From positions 1-40,429 of IMG/VR virus record IMGVR_UViG_3300010885_047290: a DNA stretch of 40,429 nt. One strand, given 5' to 3'. The notes under the pieces are model-generated. The model had not been told where the DNA came from and did not search any database. It saw only the letters and a list, made by a program, of their open reading frames with translations. The DNA is from a virus. The translations under genes were made by a program, and so were the position numbers. How positions within the stretch are numbered: position 1 is the first letter of the stretch; each line of letters begins with the position of its first letter. Of the stretch, positions 3,991 to 15,091 are shown piece by piece.

Positions 3991-4016
3991 AATTTGTCGT
4001 TTGGCATTAATGCACC
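3984..4016 (-). promoter_or_regulatory. Repeated leader element, copy 2
   Basis: On the minus strand this reads AGGGTGCATTAATG, then CAAACGACAAATTATGAAAA into the start codon. It closely matches the leader at 4336-4370: AGGGTGCATT is identical, followed by CAACGATAAACTATGAAAA. There is no Shine-Dalgarno sequence. It could be a promoter-proximal, translational or protein-binding element; the sequence alone does not decide. Confidence 0.45.
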
Positions 4017-4029
4017 CTCGCGAGGCCGG

Positions 4030-4341
4030 TCAATCGTCAATCAAATGGCTGAAACACGATTCCACCTCTTCCTGCGTGCCGTGGTGCTGCGCAAACTGGA
4101 AAGCCTCCTCTTCGGACAGGGGGATGATTGCCTCACCTCCCGTCCGCGTGTTCCCGTCAAGCGAACGGGCGAACCGAGAGAGCGGACCCCCGAGTCCGGC
4201 AATGAAAAACCTGCCCGATTTCGGTGTCCGATAAACCGTAGCCTCCCAGTGGGAGAAATCAGTGCGATGACTATGCCACCCGGCACAAATTCGCGTAGCG
4301 TTTTCTGTGTTATACCGCACACCGTTAATAATGCTTTTCAT
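4030..4341 (-). CDS. Conserved hypothetical protein (MKxIINGxRYxT type)
   Basis: A 103-residue protein opening MKSIINGVRYNTENATRI. It has the central pattern LYRT or VYRT-PKSGRFF-GLGGPLSRFA and IIPLSEEEAFQFAQHH. It resembles a widespread small family on plasmids and phages that begins MKxIINGxRYDT and contains GGEQIIPL; this is recalled from memory and its function is unknown. It is the first minus-strand gene after the divergent control region, facing the HTH gene. This position is typical of an early expressed accessory gene. Confidence 0.65.
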   Translation of the reverse strand: MKSIINGVRYNTENATRICAGWHSHRTDFSHWEATVYRTPKSGRFFIAGLGGPLSRFARSLDGNTRTGGEAIIPLSEEEAFQFAQHHGTQEEVESCFSHLIDD

Positions 4342-4370
4342 AGTTTATCGTTGGTTGTATCAATGCACCC
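4336..4370 (-). promoter_or_regulatory. Repeated leader element, copy 1
   Basis: This leader of the 4341 gene matches the one before 3990: AGGGTGCATT, then about 20 nt, then TATGAAAA including the start codon. No AGGAGG-like site is present. A duplicated leader in front of two neighbouring genes suggests either a shared regulator or a duplication that carried the expression signal. Confidence 0.45.
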
Positions 4371-4488
4371 TGAGGATGCGATTCGTAGTCACGATTCGGA
4401 CAATACGTAATTTTTTCGTGCGCGCAACAAGAAATTGCATTTTTTGGTTTTTTGTTGCAAAAAGCGGAACTCGCTCAAATGTTTCAGC
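4342..4488. promoter_or_regulatory. Divergent control region
   Basis: This 147-bp region separates the plus-strand HTH gene from the minus-strand operon, so promoters in both directions are expected here. It is AT-rich with T-tracts. It contains an inverted repeat GCAACAA (4424-4430) / TTGTTGC (4452-4458) and a direct repeat CGATTCG (4379-4385 and 4392-4398). Both are candidate operator half-sites for the HTH protein. No consensus -35/-10 pair is convincing in either direction. Confidence 0.5.
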
Positions 4489-4734
4489 ATGACTATCGAC
4501 CTACATGAATGGAGCGAAATTTCGGCGGAGCATTATTTGCTACTTCGAAAACTATTGGGAAGCCAGCTCGAGGTTGCCAAATTGCTGGGGTTGACGACCG
4601 CCACCATCTGCCTTCGGGAGCGCGGAAAAATCCAAATCAAACGGGAGGCCTGGCTGGCTATGCTGGCCCTTTGCCGGGACCTGATGGGCGCAAACAAATT
4701 CTCGGATGCGTCCAGTGACGCGACGACGAGCTAA
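4489..4734 (+). CDS. HTH (Cro/CI-type) transcription regulator
   Basis: An 81-residue protein starting MTIDLHEWSEIS. A helix-turn-helix is seen at about residues 22-48: LLGSQLEVAKLLGLTTATIC followed by LRERGKIQIKREAW. This fits the Xre/Cro class. It is one of only two plus-strand genes, is divergent from the accessory operon at 4341 and converges on the thermonuclease. That layout suggests it represses or switches the divergent promoter. No integrase accompanies it, so a lysogeny repressor is not implied; an early/late control protein is equally likely. A longer ORF from 4435 exists, but its extra residues look non-coding. Confidence 0.75.
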   Translation: MTIDLHEWSEISAEHYLLLRKLLGSQLEVAKLLGLTTATICLRERGKIQIKREAWLAMLALCRDLMGANKFSDASSDATTS

Positions 4735-4759
4735 TTTAATCGCAGCCAATATGGACGGG

Positions 4760-4786
4760 CGGGCGGATCCGAAAAAGGTTCGCCCG
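4760..4786. terminator. Convergent hairpin between HTH and nuclease genes
   Basis: A stem of about 10 bp (CGGGCGGATC paired with GGTTCGCCCG, two G-T pairs) with the loop CGAAAAA. It starts directly after the thermonuclease stop codon and lies 25 bp past the HTH stop. On the plus strand a weak T-rich stretch follows (TTACATTTTC); on the minus strand there is none. It probably ends both converging transcripts. Confidence 0.6.
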
Positions 4787-5119
4787 TTACATTTTCACGG
4801 CATGGCCCAGATCGATCATCCGCTGATTGACGGAAGTTCCGCCGGAAACATAAATGGTTGCCAGCAGCCTGCCGTATTTGTCGGAGCGGTCTTTTTGGGT
4901 CGAGATCAAAACCTGATCCCGGCCCTGCTCGAACATCTCCCGAAGTCCGATGGCAGCTGCTTCGCCCTGTGGCGTTTCCAATTCCGGCGCGTTAATTCCG
5001 GCCAACCGCAGCCGGACGTTTTTCCGCCAGAGATCCATGCCAAGGTCGATATCGGCAATGACGGTATCTCCGTCAACGACCCGGGCGATTTGAGCCTTGT
5101 AAGTGTATGGCTGATTCAT
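4787..5119 (-). CDS. Thermonuclease (SNase-like) family protein
   Basis: A 110-residue protein with the SNase core: RVVDGDTVIADIDLG near the N-terminus, VRLRLAGINAPE (Arg and Glu of the active-site region), and KDRSDKYGRLLATIYV with the second catalytic Arg, then SVNQRMIDLGHAV. These nucleases cut DNA and RNA using calcium. There is no signal peptide, so it acts in the host cytoplasm, possibly on host DNA or in nucleotide recycling. It is the last gene of the minus-strand replication block and is followed by a hairpin. It lies downstream of the 7-deazaguanine genes, so phage DNA carrying the modification could be spared; that is inference. Confidence 0.85.
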   Translation of the reverse strand: MNQPYTYKAQIARVVDGDTVIADIDLGMDLWRKNVRLRLAGINAPELETPQGEAAAIGLREMFEQGRDQVLISTQKDRSDKYGRLLATIYVSGGTSVNQRMIDLGHAVKM

Positions 5120-5140
5120 TAAAGTTAGGTTTGGTTTTCT

Positions 5141-5341: not shown

Positions 5342-5686
5342 TCAGAGGGTGATAAACGCTCCGCATGAGTCTGTCTCCCTGACTTCAATCCGCGAGATAC
5401 CTGGAAGGATTCCGTCGAGTTTGTCAAGGAACCATTCGCAAAGTCCTTCTGCCGTCGTGTCGGGAACCAGGTCATTCAAAAGCGAATGATCCAACATTTC
5501 GACCAACGGAGCGACGACCGACCTGATGTCGTGGAAGTCGATCACAAACCCGTTCGCTTTTCGTTCTCCGGTGATTTCGATCCGCAGGGTGTAGTTGTGT
5601 CCGTGCGTCTTGCTGCATGGATGCCCCGGAATGTCGAGGTGATGGGCCGCACTAAAGGAGAAGCATTTGAAGACTGTCGTTTTCAT
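5342..5686 (-). CDS. queD: QueD, 6-carboxy-tetrahydropterin synthase
   Basis: A 114-residue protein of full family length. It converts dihydroneopterin triphosphate to 6-carboxy-5,6,7,8-tetrahydropterin, the first committed step to 7-deazaguanines. Zinc ligands are H16 (FSAAHHL) and H28, H30 (CSKTHGHNY). The catalytic Cys is C24. D66-H67 (LDHSLLN) and E104 (RETDSCGAF) fit the remaining active-site positions. The start at MKTTVFK overlaps the end of the DpdA gene by 35 bp, which supports co-translation. No FolE, QueE or QueC is present, so the phage must draw on host enzymes for the other steps. The product presumably feeds the transglycosylase encoded just upstream. Confidence 0.9.
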   Translation of the reverse strand: MKTTVFKCFSFSAAHHLDIPGHPCSKTHGHNYTLRIEITGERKANGFVIDFHDIRSVVAPLVEMLDHSLLNDLVPDTTAEGLCEWFLDKLDGILPGISRIEVRETDSCGAFITL

Positions 5687-7025
5687 GGTCGTATCTGTTG
5701 GTGTTTTGGGTGAGCCATTGGAGTTGCTGACCGATCCCAAGACCTTGCATCGGACGGTAGGTCTTGAACTCGTCGGTGATCCATTCGCAGTAACGGTTGC
5801 CAGCAAGAACGACGATTTCGTCGCCGATCCTCCCGGCAAGTTGCGTCCGCACGGTTTCGGCCCATGCCTTACGGTGAATCACCGGCATCTCGTTGAGCGT
5901 CACGTCGTAGCCTTCGATTACCGTTGACGGACTGACGACCCCATGAAGTGCGGACAGGATCGCCCAGTCGTCGCCATTCTGTTTGGCCCATGCTGCCGAC
6001 TTGCGGAAAAGGTCGGATTGATAGATGTCCTCCGCTCGGTGACGGCCCTTGAGCTTCGGTCCGCAACACGCCACAAGAACCAGCTTGCGGTGCATCGCTT
6101 CCTTTTGCGCCCTCATGAGCATGTTGAGATTGTGGGCCGCTCGCCCCATGTTGTGCTCGTTCGATCCATAGGACCGAGTGTCCACGCCTTCTCCGCGAAG
6201 GACGGAGCACGCCTTGCAGTCGCACGAGACCATATCCTCGGGAACCGTTTCACCATCCCGAGTGCGTGCCGCCGAACGCTTCGTCAACTTTGCGCCGTTC
6301 TGAGTGAAGAATGCGCCCCCGGTGAAAGCCTGTTTAAAGTGGGAGCTACCGTCAGCGGACTGGATGCCGATCTCGTTCCACGTCTTCATGAAGTCCGGCG
6401 AGGACAAGCCGAGGACGTGCAACCACACGTCAGGGACCGCATCGCGAATCGCACGGACCCATGAGACCACGAGTTTTTTCTGGCTTGCACGGGCTGCGAG
6501 ACCTCCGATAGCAATGTATCGGTAGCCGATGGAGACCAACCATTTCGCGTGTTCGACCCGTTCGTCGAGGTTCATGCCGTGGACGCAAGCCATGGCATTC
6601 ATACCAGGCGGGCAATCACCGAGGAACAGTTTGGCTTGGTCGGCATTCCATGCGCGGCGATACTCGACATCGGAACCCTCAATTAGCATGTGGTCGGGGG
6701 CAATTACCATGCTACCCGCAGGTGCGTGCGCAGCATAGAGCGCTGCAACCTGTTCCGAATTCACCGGGGGAATCTCGTCGTCTTTGTAGGACCACGCCCC
6801 GCAGTCGTAAATCATCGGCTTGCCCGTAGGGAGGTCTTTGCGCCGATAGGTGAGGGAGGTCAACCACCCGGAAGGTTGCTCATCAAGAAACTCCCAGAAC
6901 GGGCGTTTCTCGCCTTGCAGTTTGATGTAGTCCCGGTTGCCAACAACTCCGAAATACATGGTAGCCGATGCGGACGTGACCTTGACCCATTCTCCCTTGT
7001 ATTTGGATTCGATTCGGTAGCTCAT
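5652..7025 (-). CDS. dpdA: DpdA-like DNA 7-deazaguanine transglycosylase fused to DUF6884
   Basis: A 457-residue protein. Residues 1-310 form a TGT-type barrel: MIYDCGAWSY holds the active-site Asp74, ACVHG (146-150) takes the place of the VQG motif, and YIAIGGLAARAS (170-181) is the TGT YAIGGL motif. SADGSSHF holds a candidate second Asp (225). The zinc site is C268-x-C270-x2-C273 with His298, matching the CxCxxC-x25-H spacing of TGTs. Residues 314-437 match the DUF6884 type (LVLVACCGPKLKG, AEDIYQSDLF, AILSALHGVVSP). DpdA proteins swap guanine in DNA for a 7-deazaguanine. The DNA (not tRNA) substrate is inferred from the phage setting and the queD partner. The DUF6884 part may act on the base. 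Confidence 0.85.
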   Translation of the reverse strand: MSYRIESKYKGEWVKVTSASATMYFGVVGNRDYIKLQGEKRPFWEFLDEQPSGWLTSLTYRRKDLPTGKPMIYDCGAWSYKDDEIPPVNSEQVAALYAAHAPAGSMVIAPDHMLIEGSDVEYRRAWNADQAKLFLGDCPPGMNAMACVHGMNLDERVEHAKWLVSIGYRYIAIGGLAARASQKKLVVSWVRAIRDAVPDVWLHVLGLSSPDFMKTWNEIGIQSADGSSHFKQAFTGGAFFTQNGAKLTKRSAARTRDGETVPEDMVSCDCKACSVLRGEGVDTRSYGSNEHNMGRAAHNLNMLMRAQKEAMHRKLVLVACCGPKLKGRHRAEDIYQSDLFRKSAAWAKQNGDDWAILSALHGVVSPSTVIEGYDVTLNEMPVIHRKAWAETVRTQLAGRIGDEIVVLAGNRYCEWITDEFKTYRPMQGLGIGQQLQWLTQNTNRYDHENDSLQMLLL

Positions 7026-7026
7026 T

Positions 7027-7314
7027 TCAGAACGGGATGTCATCGGTTTCGGGCGGTTGGTCGAACGGGATTGGCTGGTTTACTGGCCGGGTAGATGGCT
7101 GGGTGTCTGGCAGGGTCAGCGATCCAACGAACGGCGATCCTTTTGCGCGTTCATCTCCGGCTGGGTAGCTCTGTTTGAGGCTGTGCGTTTCGCCGTAACG
7201 GCTTTCCCTTGTCGGCCAGGCTACCAAGTTCAGCCACTTGTCGCCGGATCGGCTTTCGAAAAAAGCCGTCTTGTCGAGCTTCGACAAATTGATTTTGATG
7301 CGGATCGGTTTCAT
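7027..7314 (-). CDS. SSB-like single-strand DNA-binding protein, small type
   Basis: A 95-residue protein starting MKPIRIKINLSKLDKTAFFE and ending in the acidic tip ETDDIPF, like the SSB tail that recruits partner proteins. The layout (INLSKLDK, a short beta core with DKWLNLVAW, KGSPFVGSL, then a Pro-rich tail) resembles a short SSB-like family common in Bacteroidetes phages; this is recalled from memory. It has a real Shine-Dalgarno CAGGAGG 8 nt before ATG, rare in this genome, suggesting strong translation. Its stop is one base from the DpdA start. Confidence 0.6.
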   Translation of the reverse strand: MKPIRIKINLSKLDKTAFFESRSGDKWLNLVAWPTRESRYGETHSLKQSYPAGDERAKGSPFVGSLTLPDTQPSTRPVNQPIPFDQPPETDDIPF

Positions 7315-9860: not shown

Positions 9861-10367
9861 TTAAGTCAAATTGTTTGTGCGAGCAGCCCGGTAGGCGTCT
9901 CTCGCGGCTAGCGAACGCATAGCCCGGGAGGGAGGCAGGCCCAGGGTCAGGGTGAGAGCGACGCATCGTTTGCTGACCGCCGCCCGTGTCACGCCGTGGC
10001 GCCTGCCGATCTCGGTCATCGAGTCGCCGAGGTAGGCTAGGCCGGTGACCAGGGCCAGGCATTCGAGCGAGAGCCGAGGGTTGGAGTCGTGCAGTAGCTC
10101 GCCGACCATCCGCCGAATAACATGATGGAGCCGGTCATCGGTTTCGGGCTCTGACTCTGTGACTTCTTGAGCCTCGCATCGAGCCGCCGGAGAGTCAGCC
10201 GCATCGCCGGAGAGGCATCCTCCGGCGCGGCCCGGGATCGATGGTTCGGCGACCCCCAACCGCTCCAGTTCCCGCAGCTCCTCCGGTTCGAGCGAGCTTA
10301 CCCATGCGGAATAGGCGTCCCTGTATTCGCGATCCCTGTCGGACTGGGTCGCCTCGTAGGAGTTCAT
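9861..10367 (-). CDS. HTH protein (sigma-factor-region-4-like)
   Basis: A 168-residue protein with an acidic, low-complexity middle. A helix-turn-helix is seen at about 114-138: GDSMTEIGRRHGVTRAAVSK followed by RCVAL. This fits the sigma-70 region 4 or Trp-repressor-type HTH. The preceding helix (LSLECLALVTGLAYL) fits the same fold. It is coupled by ATGA to the replication-initiator-like gene. A DNA-binding role is likely; whether it regulates transcription or assists replication cannot be told. Confidence 0.7.
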   Translation of the reverse strand: MNSYEATQSDRDREYRDAYSAWVSSLEPEELRELERLGVAEPSIPGRAGGCLSGDAADSPAARCEAQEVTESEPETDDRLHHVIRRMVGELLHDSNPRLSLECLALVTGLAYLGDSMTEIGRRHGVTRAAVSKRCVALTLTLGLPPSRAMRSLAARDAYRAARTNNLT

Positions 10368-11377
10368 GCCGTTTTTAGCTCAGCGGTCAGTTCCGCGACC
10401 CGAATTTTCAATCGATCGATCTCAGCCTGGGCCCCGGGCGTATATTTCCGCCTGAGCGTTTTTCGCTCAGGAACTTCTGGATCCTCCGAGACTCGGACCA
10501 TTTCGTAGTTCGAGAGCCGTTCCCGAACGTTGCCTAGCTGATCCCTCGCGGATTGGAGATCTCTCTCGACCTGCCACCGCTGCCGTTTTCCGGTCGCGGT
10601 CTGGCCGGATCCGGGAAAAGTGAGCGATCGATCGGAGGGCGCCACCGAGAACGCCTCAAGGGGGGAGCGCCACTGTTCAAGCTCAACCAGGTCGTAGACC
10701 GACGGCAAAAAACGTTTGTCCGGTTTCCGATTTTTCCGGGCAACTTCGCTGATCTGATCGAGCTTTTCGACGAGTTCCATGGCACTAACGGCGCCACTTT
10801 GCACCAAACGAACGGCGGAAACAAGCGCCGGTTGCGAAAATCGTTTCTCGGCAGCCGAGCAGTAACCCATCAGCGATTTCTGGATCTGTTCAATTGCTCT
10901 CGCATCCGCGCGTACACTCTCTATCTCTATTTCTCCTTCTCCTTCTCTTTCCGCATGTAGCTCCTGAGCGTTGAAGCTAGTAGCTGAGCTATCGTCGCCG
11001 CCGCCAGCTGAGTTTGTAGCTGAGCTATCGCCAGAGCTAGGGTTTTCCTTAGTGTTCCAGCGATTAGCTGCCCGCCTTTTTCCGGCTTCCCGCTTGGCTG
11101 CAATTTCCGCTTGCTTTTCAACCGGGTATTCGCGCACGACAAGGTCGTCGCCGTCCCAAAGCCACAAACCGCATACCCGATTGACCTCCTCCTTTGTGAC
11201 AGCCACGACCTGCTGCCACTTGCGGTCCGGCCAGTCACGACAGTTCACGAGAACACCGTGATTTTCCTGCGAGTGGCAGTAGCCAAGAATGCACAACCAG
11301 GTAGCCCGATCGGTTGGTTCACAGCCACGAAAAACCTCGCCTTGGAGGAATTCGGTCCGAATGTTGATCCAGTTCAT
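10364..11377 (-). CDS. Replisome-organizer-like replication initiator
   Basis: A 337-residue protein. The N-terminus (MNWINIRTEFLQGEVFRGCE, then DRATWLCILGYCHSQENHGV) resembles the N-terminal DNA-binding domain of phage replisome organizers. A KREAGKRRAANRWN helix follows at about 95-108. A low-complexity linker (110-160, two copies of DSSAT) leads to a C-terminal helical part ending in a coiled coil (RLKIRVAELTAELKT). Initiators of this plan bind repeats inside their own gene, as lambda O does. The linker DNA here does carry 15-bp direct repeats. RusA, SSB-like and recombination genes are in the same operon. Confidence 0.65.
   Translation of the reverse strand: MNWINIRTEFLQGEVFRGCEPTDRATWLCILGYCHSQENHGVLVNCRDWPDRKWQQVVAVTKEEVNRVCGLWLWDGDDLVVREYPVEKQAEIAAKREAGKRRAANRWNTKENPSSGDSSATNSAGGGDDSSATSFNAQELHAEREGEGEIEIESVRADARAIEQIQKSLMGYCSAAEKRFSQPALVSAVRLVQSGAVSAMELVEKLDQISEVARKNRKPDKRFLPSVYDLVELEQWRSPLEAFSVAPSDRSLTFPGSGQTATGKRQRWQVERDLQSARDQLGNVRERLSNYEMVRVSEDPEVPERKTLRRKYTPGAQAEIDRLKIRVAELTAELKTA
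10905..11030. other. Candidate replication origin inside the initiator gene
   Basis: GTAGCTGAGCTATCG occurs exactly at 10980-10994 and 11016-11030 (36 bp apart), with a partial copy between. A minus-strand purine tract (AAAGAGAAGGAGAAGG and AATAGAGATAGAGAG, about 10914-10953) lies next to it. The same core reappears in the hairpin at 11398-11424. Iterons plus an easily melted tract within an initiator gene match the lambda O plan. That this is the origin is an inference. Confidence 0.45.
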
Positions 11378-11397
11378 ACGTTTTCATTCATTCAGTT

Positions 11398-11424
11398 AAT
11401 AGCTCAGCTACAAACTGAGCTATT
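11398..11424. promoter_or_regulatory. 10-bp perfect inverted repeat upstream of the initiator gene
   Basis: AATAGCTCAG and CTGAGCTATT are separated by CTACAAA. The arms share ATAGCTCAGCTACAAACT with the iteron region at 11013-11030, in the opposite orientation. It lies in the 69-bp gap just before the initiator start (11377). No T-run follows on the minus strand, so an operator or initiator-binding site (autoregulation) is more likely than a terminator. Confidence 0.55.
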
Positions 11425-11446
11425 AGCTCAAAAAATCAAAAAGTCT

Positions 11447-11674
11447 TCAATTCCGCCCAATCGGAAATGGCGGGATCCTCTCAAGGAGGGAGGTCAGCAA
11501 TTCGTAGTCCGCGCAAGTCGGCTCATAATCATCCTCTCCAGCGCGCCAGCAGAGGTTTTCGTACTTCGCGAATTCGGCCCTCGAAAAGGCCAATTCGCCC
11601 GCTTCAAAGGCAATGTCGACATGGACTATAGCGGTATGGATCGTCGATGGATCCATGCTCGGGTCGGCGTTCAT
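11447..11674 (-). CDS. Hypothetical protein, 75 residues
   Basis: An acidic protein, MNADPSMDPSTIHTAIVHVD, ending in LLTSLLERIPPFPIGRN. It is coupled by ATGA to the gene upstream. No motif was recognised. It precedes the AT-rich gap with the inverted repeat, so it is the last gene before the initiator. Confidence 0.6.
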   Translation of the reverse strand: MNADPSMDPSTIHTAIVHVDIAFEAGELAFSRAEFAKYENLCWRAGEDDYEPTCADYELLTSLLERIPPFPIGRN

Positions 11675-11895
11675 TCGGACGCAGGTTGACGACGAACGGT
11701 CAATTGGTGTTGGTCTCCGGTCAGCTCGATCCGTTGCCCGGAGGCGTCCTCGTAGGAGACGATCAAGTCGCGCACGTGATGGCTGGCAAGGAAATTACGG
11801 TTGGCCTCCCGCGCCCAGAAAAAAGCGCGGATTCGGCATTCGGTTAGGATAGCCAACTGGTCCGCTGGCATGTTTTTTGGCATTTCGTAGTTCAT
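11671..11895 (-). CDS. Hypothetical protein, 74 residues
   Basis: Begins MNYEMPKNMPADQLAILTEC, ends LTGDQHQLTVRRQPASE. A helical N-terminus is followed by a short beta stretch (LIVSYEDASGQRIEL). It is coupled by ATGA to rusA upstream and to the 75-residue gene downstream. No family was recognised. Confidence 0.6.
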   Translation of the reverse strand: MNYEMPKNMPADQLAILTECRIRAFFWAREANRNFLASHHVRDLIVSYEDASGQRIELTGDQHQLTVRRQPASE

Positions 11896-12296
11896 TTTTG
11901 TGTAATTTTCAGATAGGTTTGAGGTTCATACAGATAAATCTTTGTGGCGCTGATTGAGACAACGGCTGAATCGTCGGGCCAGGCTAGGCCGTTGAGTGCA
12001 TCCAGGACGAATTTAATCAGGTTATCCAAGTCCGGCCGTCCGGTTGGCGAGCTGGGCGCATCTTCGCGACGGATGCCATTCCGAAAATGCGTTTTTGGTC
12101 GGACCATGCCGAACTCCAATTGTACGTGGAGCGGACCATGCCAGGTTGTGAGTCCACCCGCGATCGCAAGCGCGGCAAATCGCTTCTTTTCTGCCGCGCT
12201 CGGATCGTAAATTCTCAGACCGCCACCGAGCCTGACGGATCGATGGCGCTTCTGAGGAACGGGTTGGCCCTGGATCGTGATTATTTGAGACTTCAT
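11892..12296 (-). CDS. rusA: RusA-family Holliday junction resolvase
   Basis: A 134-residue protein of family length. The signature GRPDLDNLIKFVLDALNG is at 87-104, giving metal-binding D89 and D91, K95 and D99, with D108/D109 in WPDDS. The family cuts four-way DNA junctions as a dimer using magnesium. In phages it resolves recombination and replication intermediates before packaging. The start at MKSQIITIQGQPVPQKR overlaps the upstream stop as ATGA and gives the standard RusA N-terminus. The longer upstream ORF is rejected. Confidence 0.93.
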   Translation of the reverse strand: MKSQIITIQGQPVPQKRHRSVRLGGGLRIYDPSAAEKKRFAALAIAGGLTTWHGPLHVQLEFGMVRPKTHFRNGIRREDAPSSPTGRPDLDNLIKFVLDALNGLAWPDDSAVVSISATKIYLYEPQTYLKITQK

Positions 12297-12755: not shown

Positions 12756-13727
12756 TCATGCGGGCTGAGATGCGAAAAGCGGCATCTCCTCTTGGTCCCG
12801 ACGTTCGCCAGCGGCGTCGATGTTTTTGACGGCCTGCCGGTAGTAGGAGGGCTTGAGTTCCGCGCCGACTCCTTTCCGTCCCATCACGACAGCCTGATAA
12901 ACCTCGGAGCCGACGCCCATGAAAGGGGTGAACACAATCTCGCCGGGGTTGCTGCGGAGTTCGATACATCGGGCGATCACGTCAAGCTGGAGAGGGTGAA
13001 CATGTTTCTCGTCCTCGGCATCCCGCGCCGCCTCGTAGGGCAAGACGTTGGAGATGTCGATGTCATGCCAGGACGAGGACGCATAGCGCCGCCAACACCA
13101 GTGGGAGAACCGGTTGAGTTTCTGGTCGCCCTCCATCCCGCGCAGGTGGTGAAGATCATGCGGGGGTTGATCGGTACCGTAGTATTTGAGCAACCCTCGC
13201 TCGTGAACGACTGGCACTTGATTTTTGCCGTCACGGCGGAACATCAAAAGGTAATCCGCCCCGGCGACATCGCACAAGGATGAATCAACGCAGACCGTCT
13301 TGTGAGCCAAGCCCTTGGCCATCGTGCGGTTTCGCACCGCAAGCGGCTCCTTCCAGATATGATGGCGGGCCACGTATTGGAACCCGTGCTTTTGATGGAG
13401 CCGGATAATGTCACCTGGGAAGTCCGTTAAGAAATTCCCTAGGTTGCACGAATCCGGGACATCCATCGCGTGAACTCCCGTGCAGCGACCCGGCTTGGTG
13501 ATCCTGGCAATTTGCTCAACCACGTATTCGTAGTGTTCGAAGAATTCCTTGTAGTTGCGTGAGTTGGAAAGGTCGCGGAGATCATTCGAATACGTGTAAA
13601 GGGCGCAGAATGGAGGGGAATACACCGAGAGGTCTAGCGACGCTTTCGGCATGTCAGACATGACCTCGATGCAATCTCCATTGTAGAGGGCGAAGCGGTC
13701 GGTGATATGTTGGTCGATTACAGCCAT
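12756..13727 (-). CDS. DNA methyltransferase (N4-cytosine or N6-adenine, beta order)
   Basis: A 323-residue protein. The catalytic motif IV SPPF is at 37-40, just after NGDCIEVM. The SAM-binding motif (VFTPFMGVGSE, about 273-283) comes at the C-terminal end, giving the beta-class order. SPPF rather than DPPY favours N4-cytosine but does not prove it. A middle region with HHIWKEPLAVRNRTMAKGL fits site-specific phage methyltransferases. No partner restriction endonuclease is present, so it probably protects phage DNA. It starts inside the last codons of the helicase gene, so the two proteins are made together. Confidence 0.88.
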   Translation of the reverse strand: MAVIDQHITDRFALYNGDCIEVMSDMPKASLDLSVYSPPFCALYTYSNDLRDLSNSRNYKEFFEHYEYVVEQIARITKPGRCTGVHAMDVPDSCNLGNFLTDFPGDIIRLHQKHGFQYVARHHIWKEPLAVRNRTMAKGLAHKTVCVDSSLCDVAGADYLLMFRRDGKNQVPVVHERGLLKYYGTDQPPHDLHHLRGMEGDQKLNRFSHWCWRRYASSSWHDIDISNVLPYEAARDAEDEKHVHPLQLDVIARCIELRSNPGEIVFTPFMGVGSEVYQAVVMGRKGVGAELKPSYYRQAVKNIDAAGERRDQEEMPLFASQPA

Positions 13728-15091
13728 GATGGAATTGCGGTGGTGGTTGTGTGTTGGGTGGATTTAGTGACAGAGTTCGCCTCGCCCATGAGTGAAACGA
13801 GGTTGGCGAAAAGGATCTCGGCGTTATCCGCCTTGCGCATGAGGTTGGCGAGAACGCCGCGTTCTCCTTCGCTCGCGATAATGTCCACCGTCACGGGATT
13901 CTTTTGGCCGAATCGCCACGATCGCCGAATGGCTTGGTGGAACTGCTCGAAGGAGTGCGACGGGAAAAAGGTTTGATGGGCGCAGTGCTGCCAGTTGAGG
14001 CCGAACCCGGCAATTTCTGGCTTCGTGACCAGCACGCGAATCTGACCGTGAGCGAATGCCATAAAGGACTCCTCTTTGGATTCCATGCTATCGCTCCCGG
14101 ATACTTCGACCGCGCCAGGGATGGCGGCTTTGAGCGCAGCACTTTCATCATTGAGATAGCACCACGCCACCGCAGATTCGTTGTGAGCGTTGATCAGTCG
14201 GGAAGCGGACTCGCACCGTTGCTCCAGCGTCCGGCGGCGCTCCTGGCGTTGCTCGCTCAATCCCACGGCGGGCATGGTGAATAACATCCCGGGAAGCGGC
14301 GAATCATTTCGCACTACGGTTTCCCGAGTGATGAGCGGAGGCAGGGCGAACGCATCGTCCGAGAATCCAATATCAGACGGCTTGCGCGCGGCCCGCGCCC
14401 ATGAGCAGACCCACGTGAAAAAGTGATCTTCGGCATGGCCCCGGAAGCGCCAGACACCGGAACGGAATTCATCCTTGCGGCTGTTGGTCTTGCGATCGGC
14501 GTCTTTTTTGAAAAACGTCCCCAGCATGTCGTTGAATCCCATGTAGCCAAGGGCTTCGCTGGATGTTCCAAGCTCGATCAGGTCATTCGGTGAAGGCGTC
14601 GCCGTGCAAAGGAGTCGGTAAGACATCTTGCGCATGAAGTCCGTCACCAGCGCCCGTGTCACGCCGTCGCAGTTTTTGAGGATAGACGATTCATCGGCAA
14701 CGCACCCGACAAAATCGGCGGCGTTGAAATAGTGGAGGCGTTGGTAGTTGGTCACGAGAATCTTTGCCCCAGCCGGGCACGTCCCATCGTTGGACCGGTG
14801 AGCGTCAATCCCAAACTTTGCCGCCTCTTCAACCATCTGAGAAGCGACGGCCAGCGGAGTCAGGACCAACACCCGGCCATTTGTCTTGCGGACTACGTTG
14901 GCGGCGAATGTCATTTGCATCGCCGACTTACCAAGCCCGCAGTCGGCGAAGATCGCGGCCCGTCCCTTTCGCACCGCCCACCGGACAAGCGATTGCTGAA
15001 AGTCGAAAAGCTTCGACGGCATAAACAGGGGTTCAAAACCGGCGTCGTCGTAGACGTGGCGCTTTTGCTCAAGTAGTCGGGCGTAGCTCAT
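13718..15091 (-). CDS. SF2 (SNF2/DEAD-type) helicase
   Basis: A 457-residue protein. Q-like motif region FDFQQSLVRWAVRKGRAAIF, Walker A ADCGLGKS (49-56), motif II ADES (132-135), motif III TATPSPND (163-170), and motif VI QAIRRSWRFGQKN (about 398-410). The family moves along or remodels duplex DNA with ATP. Its position between the Sak4-like ATPase and the methyltransferase suggests a role in replication or recombination. Such helicases often sit next to DNA methyltransferases in phages. The start ATG 15091 has no Shine-Dalgarno sequence; a 62-bp gap upstream holds nothing notable. Confidence 0.88.
   Translation of the reverse strand: MSYARLLEQKRHVYDDAGFEPLFMPSKLFDFQQSLVRWAVRKGRAAIFADCGLGKSAMQMTFAANVVRKTNGRVLVLTPLAVASQMVEEAAKFGIDAHRSNDGTCPAGAKILVTNYQRLHYFNAADFVGCVADESSILKNCDGVTRALVTDFMRKMSYRLLCTATPSPNDLIELGTSSEALGYMGFNDMLGTFFKKDADRKTNSRKDEFRSGVWRFRGHAEDHFFTWVCSWARAARKPSDIGFSDDAFALPPLITRETVVRNDSPLPGMLFTMPAVGLSEQRQERRRTLEQRCESASRLINAHNESAVAWCYLNDESAALKAAIPGAVEVSGSDSMESKEESFMAFAHGQIRVLVTKPEIAGFGLNWQHCAHQTFFPSHSFEQFHQAIRRSWRFGQKNPVTVDIIASEGERGVLANLMRKADNAEILFANLVSLMGEANSVTKSTQHTTTTAIPSWL

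Follow-up and report, generated by a model that had tools for sequence, protein, structure and literature searches.

A probable replication origin within the linker-coding DNA of a phage initiator gene, and lineage-specific DNA repeats at the same place in its relatives

The stretch of DNA analyzed here (the window) is a virus record of 40,429 bases, in which PHROG profiles match terminase, portal, head protease, tape-measure, endolysin, Sak4-like and exonuclease genes. Its minus strand carries a gene of 337 codons whose product is composed of an N-terminal domain, a disordered linker, a helical C-terminal domain and a coiled coil, and whose start codon (11377) is separated by 69 bp from the end of the preceding predicted ORF (11447). 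The end of this gene is overlapped by a small gene with weak helix-turn-helix matches (9861-10367), at a place occupied in some relatives by genes for DnaB- or DnaC-like proteins, and an SNF2-type helicase gene is found at 13718-15091. Farther away, at 5342-7043, one gene encodes what we take, from its sequence, to be a protein resembling 6-pyruvoyl-tetrahydropterin/QueD-type proteins, and its neighbor matches a queuine tRNA-ribosyltransferase PHROG (phrog_887); these genes are possibly a 7-deazaguanine DNA modification set. The features of the locus are as follows:

10364-11377, minus strand: initiator gene, 337 aa (ORF; relatives in PHROG replication-initiation families; structure model)
10649-10888, minus strand: C-terminal helical part, aa 164-243, related to the C-terminus of the PHROG-matched initiator of relative L018
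10917-10952, minus (coding) strand: purine tract, A+T-rich for the gene; putative unwinding element
10970-11045: repeat-bearing linker-coding DNA, with 7 AGCT half-sites in 76 bp as against 127 in the whole window
10980-10994: iteron copy 1, GTAGCTGAGCTATCG, containing a dyad at 10981-10991
11016-11030: iteron copy 2, GTAGCTGAGCTATCG, containing the dyad TAGCTGAGCTA at 11017-11027 and overlapping a 23-bp composite at 11006-11028
11045-11377, minus strand: N-terminal domain, aa 1-111, winged-helix-like and putatively DNA-binding (model with weak fold matches; conserved in relatives)
11398-11424: upstream palindromic copy with 10-bp arms and a 7-bp center, in the 69-bp gap; possible operator or extra initiator site

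The initial annotation had labeled this gene a replication initiator, a name that library scans of the window protein itself (Pfam, PHROGs, NCBIfam) do not return, as they yield no naming family match and, for PHROGs, none at all at E<=0.001; the label holds through relatives only. When 40 family members including the window were scanned, up to four each matched the PHROG families "replication initiation O-like", "replication initiation protein" and "primosomal protein". The O-like family phrog_678 was matched by four of the 40, with the match beginning at aa 96 in L044 and aa 153 in L074, the two looked at, and the replication initiation protein family phrog_3926 was matched weakly, via the N-terminal part, by L011 (E 4.8e-4) and L023 (E 3.3e-4) and not by L040, all three of which have the same core motif as the window. 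NCBIfam names none of 39 members scanned, and Pfam gives incidental matches to a few of 40. Among the downstream ORFs of relatives (69 scanned of 125 listed, from 42 loci), ten match DnaB_C and nine match IstB (DnaC-like ATPases).

A model of the full-length protein is confident for the N-terminal domain (aa 1-111) and helical in its C-terminal parts, whereas pLDDT falls below 50 at aa 119-127 and 129-149 of the linker, which is the part encoded by the repeats and the tract. Foldseek found no match at E<=0.001 for either the whole model or a model of the isolated N-terminal domain. The VIA list for the whole model was filled by C-terminal helices, and the isolated N-terminal model (mean pLDDT 90) was used instead; the N-termini of plasmid RepA initiators top both of its structure lists, weakly (Foldseek E 0.14-0.16; VIA Z 4.1, rmsd 3.5, 79 aligned).

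The initial annotation had reported an exact repeat 36 bp apart next to a purine-rich tract, a duplicated DSSAT peptide and an inverted core copy 21 bp before the gene, and all of these are borne out. The 15-mer GTAGCTGAGCTATCG recurs with a start-to-start distance of 36 bp (10980-10994 and 11016-11030); both copies lie in the same reading frame, and DSSAT is encoded twice. The core TAGCTGAGCTA, or TAGCTCAGCTA on the opposite strand, occupies three sites in the window (10981, 11017 and 11400). With up to one mismatch allowed, it gives six strand matches, all at those three sites, as compared with a mean of 0.12 and a maximum of 3 in 100 dinucleotide shuffles. The inverted copy upstream is better than had been claimed, since 11399-11421 agrees with 11006-11028 at 22 of 23 positions (96%); 21 bases lie between 11399 and the start codon. 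When viral contigs were searched for exact copies of the 23-bp composite, none turned up. Adjoining the repeats, 34 of the 36 bases at 10917-10952 are purines on the coding strand, including an unbroken run of 23 (10930-10952). This tract has an A+T content of 0.58 against a gene mean of 0.44, and no 36-mer of the gene is richer in A+T than the one (0.61) that begins one base beyond its start, so that an A+T-rich, purine-asymmetric tract is present beside the iterons. GC skew, proposed earlier as a check, shows no clear-cut change around 11 kb and argues neither for nor against an origin.

To separate these features from the demands of the protein, we replaced the codons of the linker by synonymous ones, following the codon usage of the phage itself. 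Of 5000 such recodings, 14 recreated the 15-bp direct repeat, and of 2000, none recreated the exact inverted match of 18 bp with the 120 bp upstream; the codons for aa 141-156 were never as purine-rich (0/5000), and a purine run of equal length appeared in 59 of 5000. Pairs of repeated 8-mers were in excess for aa 96-165 (p 0.012) and, with purine words counted, for aa 96-175 (p 0.002). Dyads alone were less distinctive, with 3 in the window's linker versus 0.71 expected (p 0.056) and likewise 3 in its C-terminal control part (p 0.007).

Three Akkermansia phages had been found as relatives ahead of a search with the N-terminal domain, which returned 68 viral loci and five genome loci, the latter titled Planctomycetota, Lentisphaerae, Akkermansia (two) and a Clostridiales bin. 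L001 was dropped because it is on the same contig as L022, and of 64 distinct proteins including that of the window, two shorter than 170 aa (L018, 111 aa; L046, 146 aa) were left out, leaving 62 genes in 27 lineages. Just upstream of the initiator gene, L001 (5900-6000) and L020 have terminator-like GC-rich inverted repeats, with a similar TTCGTCGTTGTC stretch in both.

The linkers of the relatives carry DNA repeats of their own, which differ from one another (for example ACCNACGTNGGT, AACCNNNNGGTT, AACCCAAGC (11-12 bp steps), TGCCTCAAGGCA and TGCGTCACGCA). With purine words included, repeated 8-mers exceed the recoding null at p<=0.05 in 61 of the 62 distinct genes. In a stricter test, which masked purine words and took a single gene from each lineage (n=27), the linkers contained 484 8-mer pairs versus 66.2 expected (7.3x), as against 29 versus 25.2 (1.2x) in the N-terminal and 79 versus 38.5 (2.1x) in the C-terminal control parts. 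Individually, p<=0.05 was reached by 16 of 27 linkers, one N-terminal part and six C-terminal parts, and 11 of the 27 lineages thus fall short for linker repeats alone. Dyads behaved similarly in total (linker, 50 versus 16.9; N-terminal, 15 versus 17.2; C-terminal, 15 versus 20.0), with seven of 27 linkers at p<=0.05 individually. The 36-mer with the highest purine content in the gene (0.78 to 1.0) falls at nt 371-472 in 26 of the 27 lineages and at nt 531 in the remaining one, and the tract is A+T-richer than its gene in 23 of 27.

An out-of-sample set was drawn from the phylum of genome G001 (387 genomes, 15 with a match). After removal of loci that repeat earlier ones (L082, L084, L087) or belong to earlier lineages (L081, L083, L086, L096), of one without an ORF (L095) and of a short one (L098), nine further lineages were left. 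The excess of linker pairs recurred in these (156 versus 26.0; 7/9 at p<=0.05, L093 and L097 being non-significant), with controls at 16 versus 10.1 (N-terminal) and 35 versus 15.8 (C-terminal). The dyad excess was absent from the nine (6 versus 5.8), and the purine-run excess failed to repeat, appearing in two of them. The linker DNA of a distant family member, L092, is a dense array of ATGCAAATGCA-like units that codes for the peptide ADANADANA.

Retention of the peptide repeats with loss of the nucleotide repeats, named in the initial annotation as evidence against a function in the DNA, is the opposite of what the relatives display: the linkers keep DNA repeats while their peptides change. 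The same 9-mer is repeated in more than one reading frame in the linkers of 11 of 27 lineages (recoding mean 2.1, maximum 7; 0/300 as high). The linker is not alone in this, because the C-terminal control is raised as well (7/27; 1/300 recodings as high), with the N-terminal control at 2/27 (75/300 as high). The consensus AGCTSAGCT occurs in the linkers of L011, L026, L040 (twice) and L023, in the last of these in another frame; outside the linkers, the loci of the other 61 genes hold three occurrences, two of which belong to L005 and L006, a near-identical pair. Because lineages differ in their repeat, which often turns up in more than one frame, the repeats seem to be conserved as DNA, with the reservation that the C-terminal control is also raised.

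These data also bear on the simplest alternative, namely that repeats and tract do nothing but encode a low-complexity, charged, disordered linker. The linker is indeed predicted to be disordered, DSSAT is repeated, and peptides rich in E, R, K and G require many purines; moreover, cross-frame repeats are raised in the C-terminal parts too, so some of the repeat excess has other causes. However, synonymous recoding preserves the protein and loses the repeats, the repeats are found in different frames, and the window has a further copy in non-coding DNA upstream, all of which makes an explanation by coding alone quite unlikely. The earlier suggestion that DNA function may shape the protein linker gains support, as the repeat-encoded part is the one predicted to be disordered, which suggests that a role of the DNA itself limits the coding sequence of a disordered segment.

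The gene also appears to be modular. In L018, two initiator-type genes stand in tandem (4001-5121), and the second has linker repeats and a purine tract by eye. The first encodes the N-terminal domain alone, as a protein of 111 aa with 50% identity to the window's domain, and the protein of the next gene, which matches phrog_2509 (replication initiation protein, E 9.5e-51), has a C-terminus 45% identical to the window's over 80 aa (pairwise E 6e-21). The window gene looks like a joining of the two kinds of gene found in L018. Across the family, the C-terminal parts beside the shared N-terminal domain fall into 17 groups with no mutual similarity detectable at the cut-off used. We compared seven pairs of relatives, picked by eye, and found a sharp change of identity at the purine tract in four of them (L060/L068, L071/L047, L075/L060 and L038/L009). 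For L060/L068, identity is 98% in the last 60-base block before the tract end and 40-49% in the next five such blocks, and L075/L060 is alike; L071/L047 goes from 57-73% before the break to 98-100% over the next 240 bases, and L038/L009 from 54-75% to 85-97%. The break is ragged in L071/L066, and no break can be located in L038/L040 and L060/L005, whose sequences have diverged too far. Because identity shifts so sharply at the tract, the N-terminal domain and the repeats seem to travel together, and binding domain and repeats would then seem to form one exchangeable cassette. On a tree of the N-terminal domain, motif classes, which were drawn by eye prior to the regular expressions, cluster (14 changes versus 33.8 when shuffled; 0/200 as low), a result inflated by near-copies. 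The AGCTSAGCT class is unclustered on this tree (4 changes; 67/500 shuffles as low), and given this and the inflation of the overall clustering, we do not claim a single origin of the core.

The closest precedent is the phage lambda origin, which is located within the O gene (PMC5043065; PMC6022878). The lambda initiator sites lie inside the initiator gene, between the parts for the N- and C-terminal regions, and consist of inverted-repeat iterons with an A+T-rich neighboring tract that has nearly all purines on one strand (PMC5043065), all of which resembles the window. Even the position of the most purine-rich 36-mer is similar (nt 428 in lambda O, nt 426 in the window). When lambda O was subjected to the recoding test, with codon usage taken from O alone, its linker gave 12 pairs versus 0.91 expected (0/2000), its C-terminal part 0 versus 0.69 and its N-terminal part 4 versus 0.88 (p 0.042); neither its purine run nor its dyads went beyond the recoding null. 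There are also differences: lambda has four annotated 18-bp iterons, whereas two complete dyads, of 11 bp each, are present in the window together with half-sites, the window protein is without a match to O-like profiles, and no P-like gene is named beside its gene. Still, the proposal of a lambda-O-like in-gene origin is well supported by comparison, through the linker repeats of the relatives, the behavior of lambda O in the repeat test and the position of the tract.

A second precedent is the RepA_N-type Rep of plasmid pSK41, a protein of 319 aa whose N-terminal winged helix is described as binding boxes central in rep; its central linker is encoded by the origin, and in pPR9 the N-terminal domain and origin differ as a block (PMC5703833). 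The window family is similar in having repeats central in the gene and in the breaks at the purine tract in four of seven pairs. RepA_N structures are the top, weak fold matches of the window's N-terminal domain (Foldseek E 0.14, Z 4.1). At the profile level, Pfam RepA_N (PF06970) is unlisted at E<=1 for the window and matches none of 40 members at E<=0.01. In contrast to pSK41 Rep, the window initiator is carried by a phage and has a strong coding-strand purine tract.

In iteron plasmids such as mini-F, the iterons lie outside the rep coding sequence, and the operators are inverted repeats with sequence common to the iterons. The window likewise has a palindromic site bearing the iteron sequence ahead of the gene (11398-11424, compared with 11006-11028), an arrangement seen in the window only, and it is the upstream copy that is symmetrical, not the in-gene copy over the same span. 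For mini-F, the source describes RepE dimers as repressing at the repE operator and monomers as initiating replication (PMC5785507), a parallel that we consider suggestive. The upstream copy could serve as an operator or as an additional site for the initiator; as RNA, it could form a leader hairpin. Autoregulation of the initiator gene, as envisaged in the initial annotation, is possible in the window and finds no support beyond it: the upstream copy occurs in one of 27 lineages, as the longest exact match to the linker repeat within 200 bp is 18 bp in the window and at most 9 bp in the other 26, where diverged copies could be missed. It is conceivable, if rather doubtful, that one phage combines two schemes derived from the same site, an in-gene origin of the lambda/pSK41 kind and a palindromic operator of the iteron-plasmid kind. 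If true, initiator dimers at the palindrome would shut the gene, and other forms bound to the asymmetric in-gene copies would start replication.

Alternatively, the sites in and before the gene could serve solely as operators through which the protein represses its own transcription, with the origin located elsewhere. The palindromic copy 21 bp ahead of the start codon would suit such a role, but an upstream copy is found in none of the 26 other lineages, the strand-asymmetric tract beside the repeats is an origin feature in lambda (PMC5043065), and a scan of 10300-11900 found no sigma-70-like promoter, although host promoters may differ; we therefore hold this explanation to be highly improbable. 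There is similarly little chance that the upstream copy acts as RNA, with a leader hairpin or leader/linker mRNA pairing controlling translation, for while the leader (11365-11446, minus strand) folds at -25.2 kcal/mol (z -4.4; 0/200 shuffles as stable), any DNA palindrome yields such a hairpin, what the two copies share is the site and not the symmetry, and the window has no Rfam match.

The repeats, their DNA-level nature across the relatives, the tract and the modular structure of the gene are evident from the sequences themselves. Taken together, they make it likely that 10364-11377 is the gene of a phage replication initiator and contains an origin, of the lambda O/pSK41 kind, to which its own product binds. 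The origin would then be the central, linker-coding DNA of the initiator's own gene. The winged-helix-like N-terminal domain would bind the AGCTSAGCT dyads at 10970-11045, binding would strain the adjoining purine-asymmetric, A+T-rich tract (10917-10952) and promote its opening, and the C-terminal part would subsequently recruit the helicase machinery, probably that of the host, since none of the 19 window ORFs scanned has a DnaB- or DnaC-like match.

The in-gene origin arrangement as such is already known; the new part is the family, its lineage-specific repeats and the upstream palindrome of the window. Judged by titles, the best-ranked papers of one open-access library contained no description of this initiator family or of an Akkermansia/Verrucomicrobia phage origin. 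Our analysis indicates likely origins of replication for a large set of phage initiators, which occur in viral contigs, in phages and genomes of Akkermansia, and in genome bins of Planctomycetota and Lentisphaerae. Because each lineage has its own repeat beside its own binding domain, with swaps at the tract in some relatives, the group may provide a natural series for following how an initiator and its DNA site change together.
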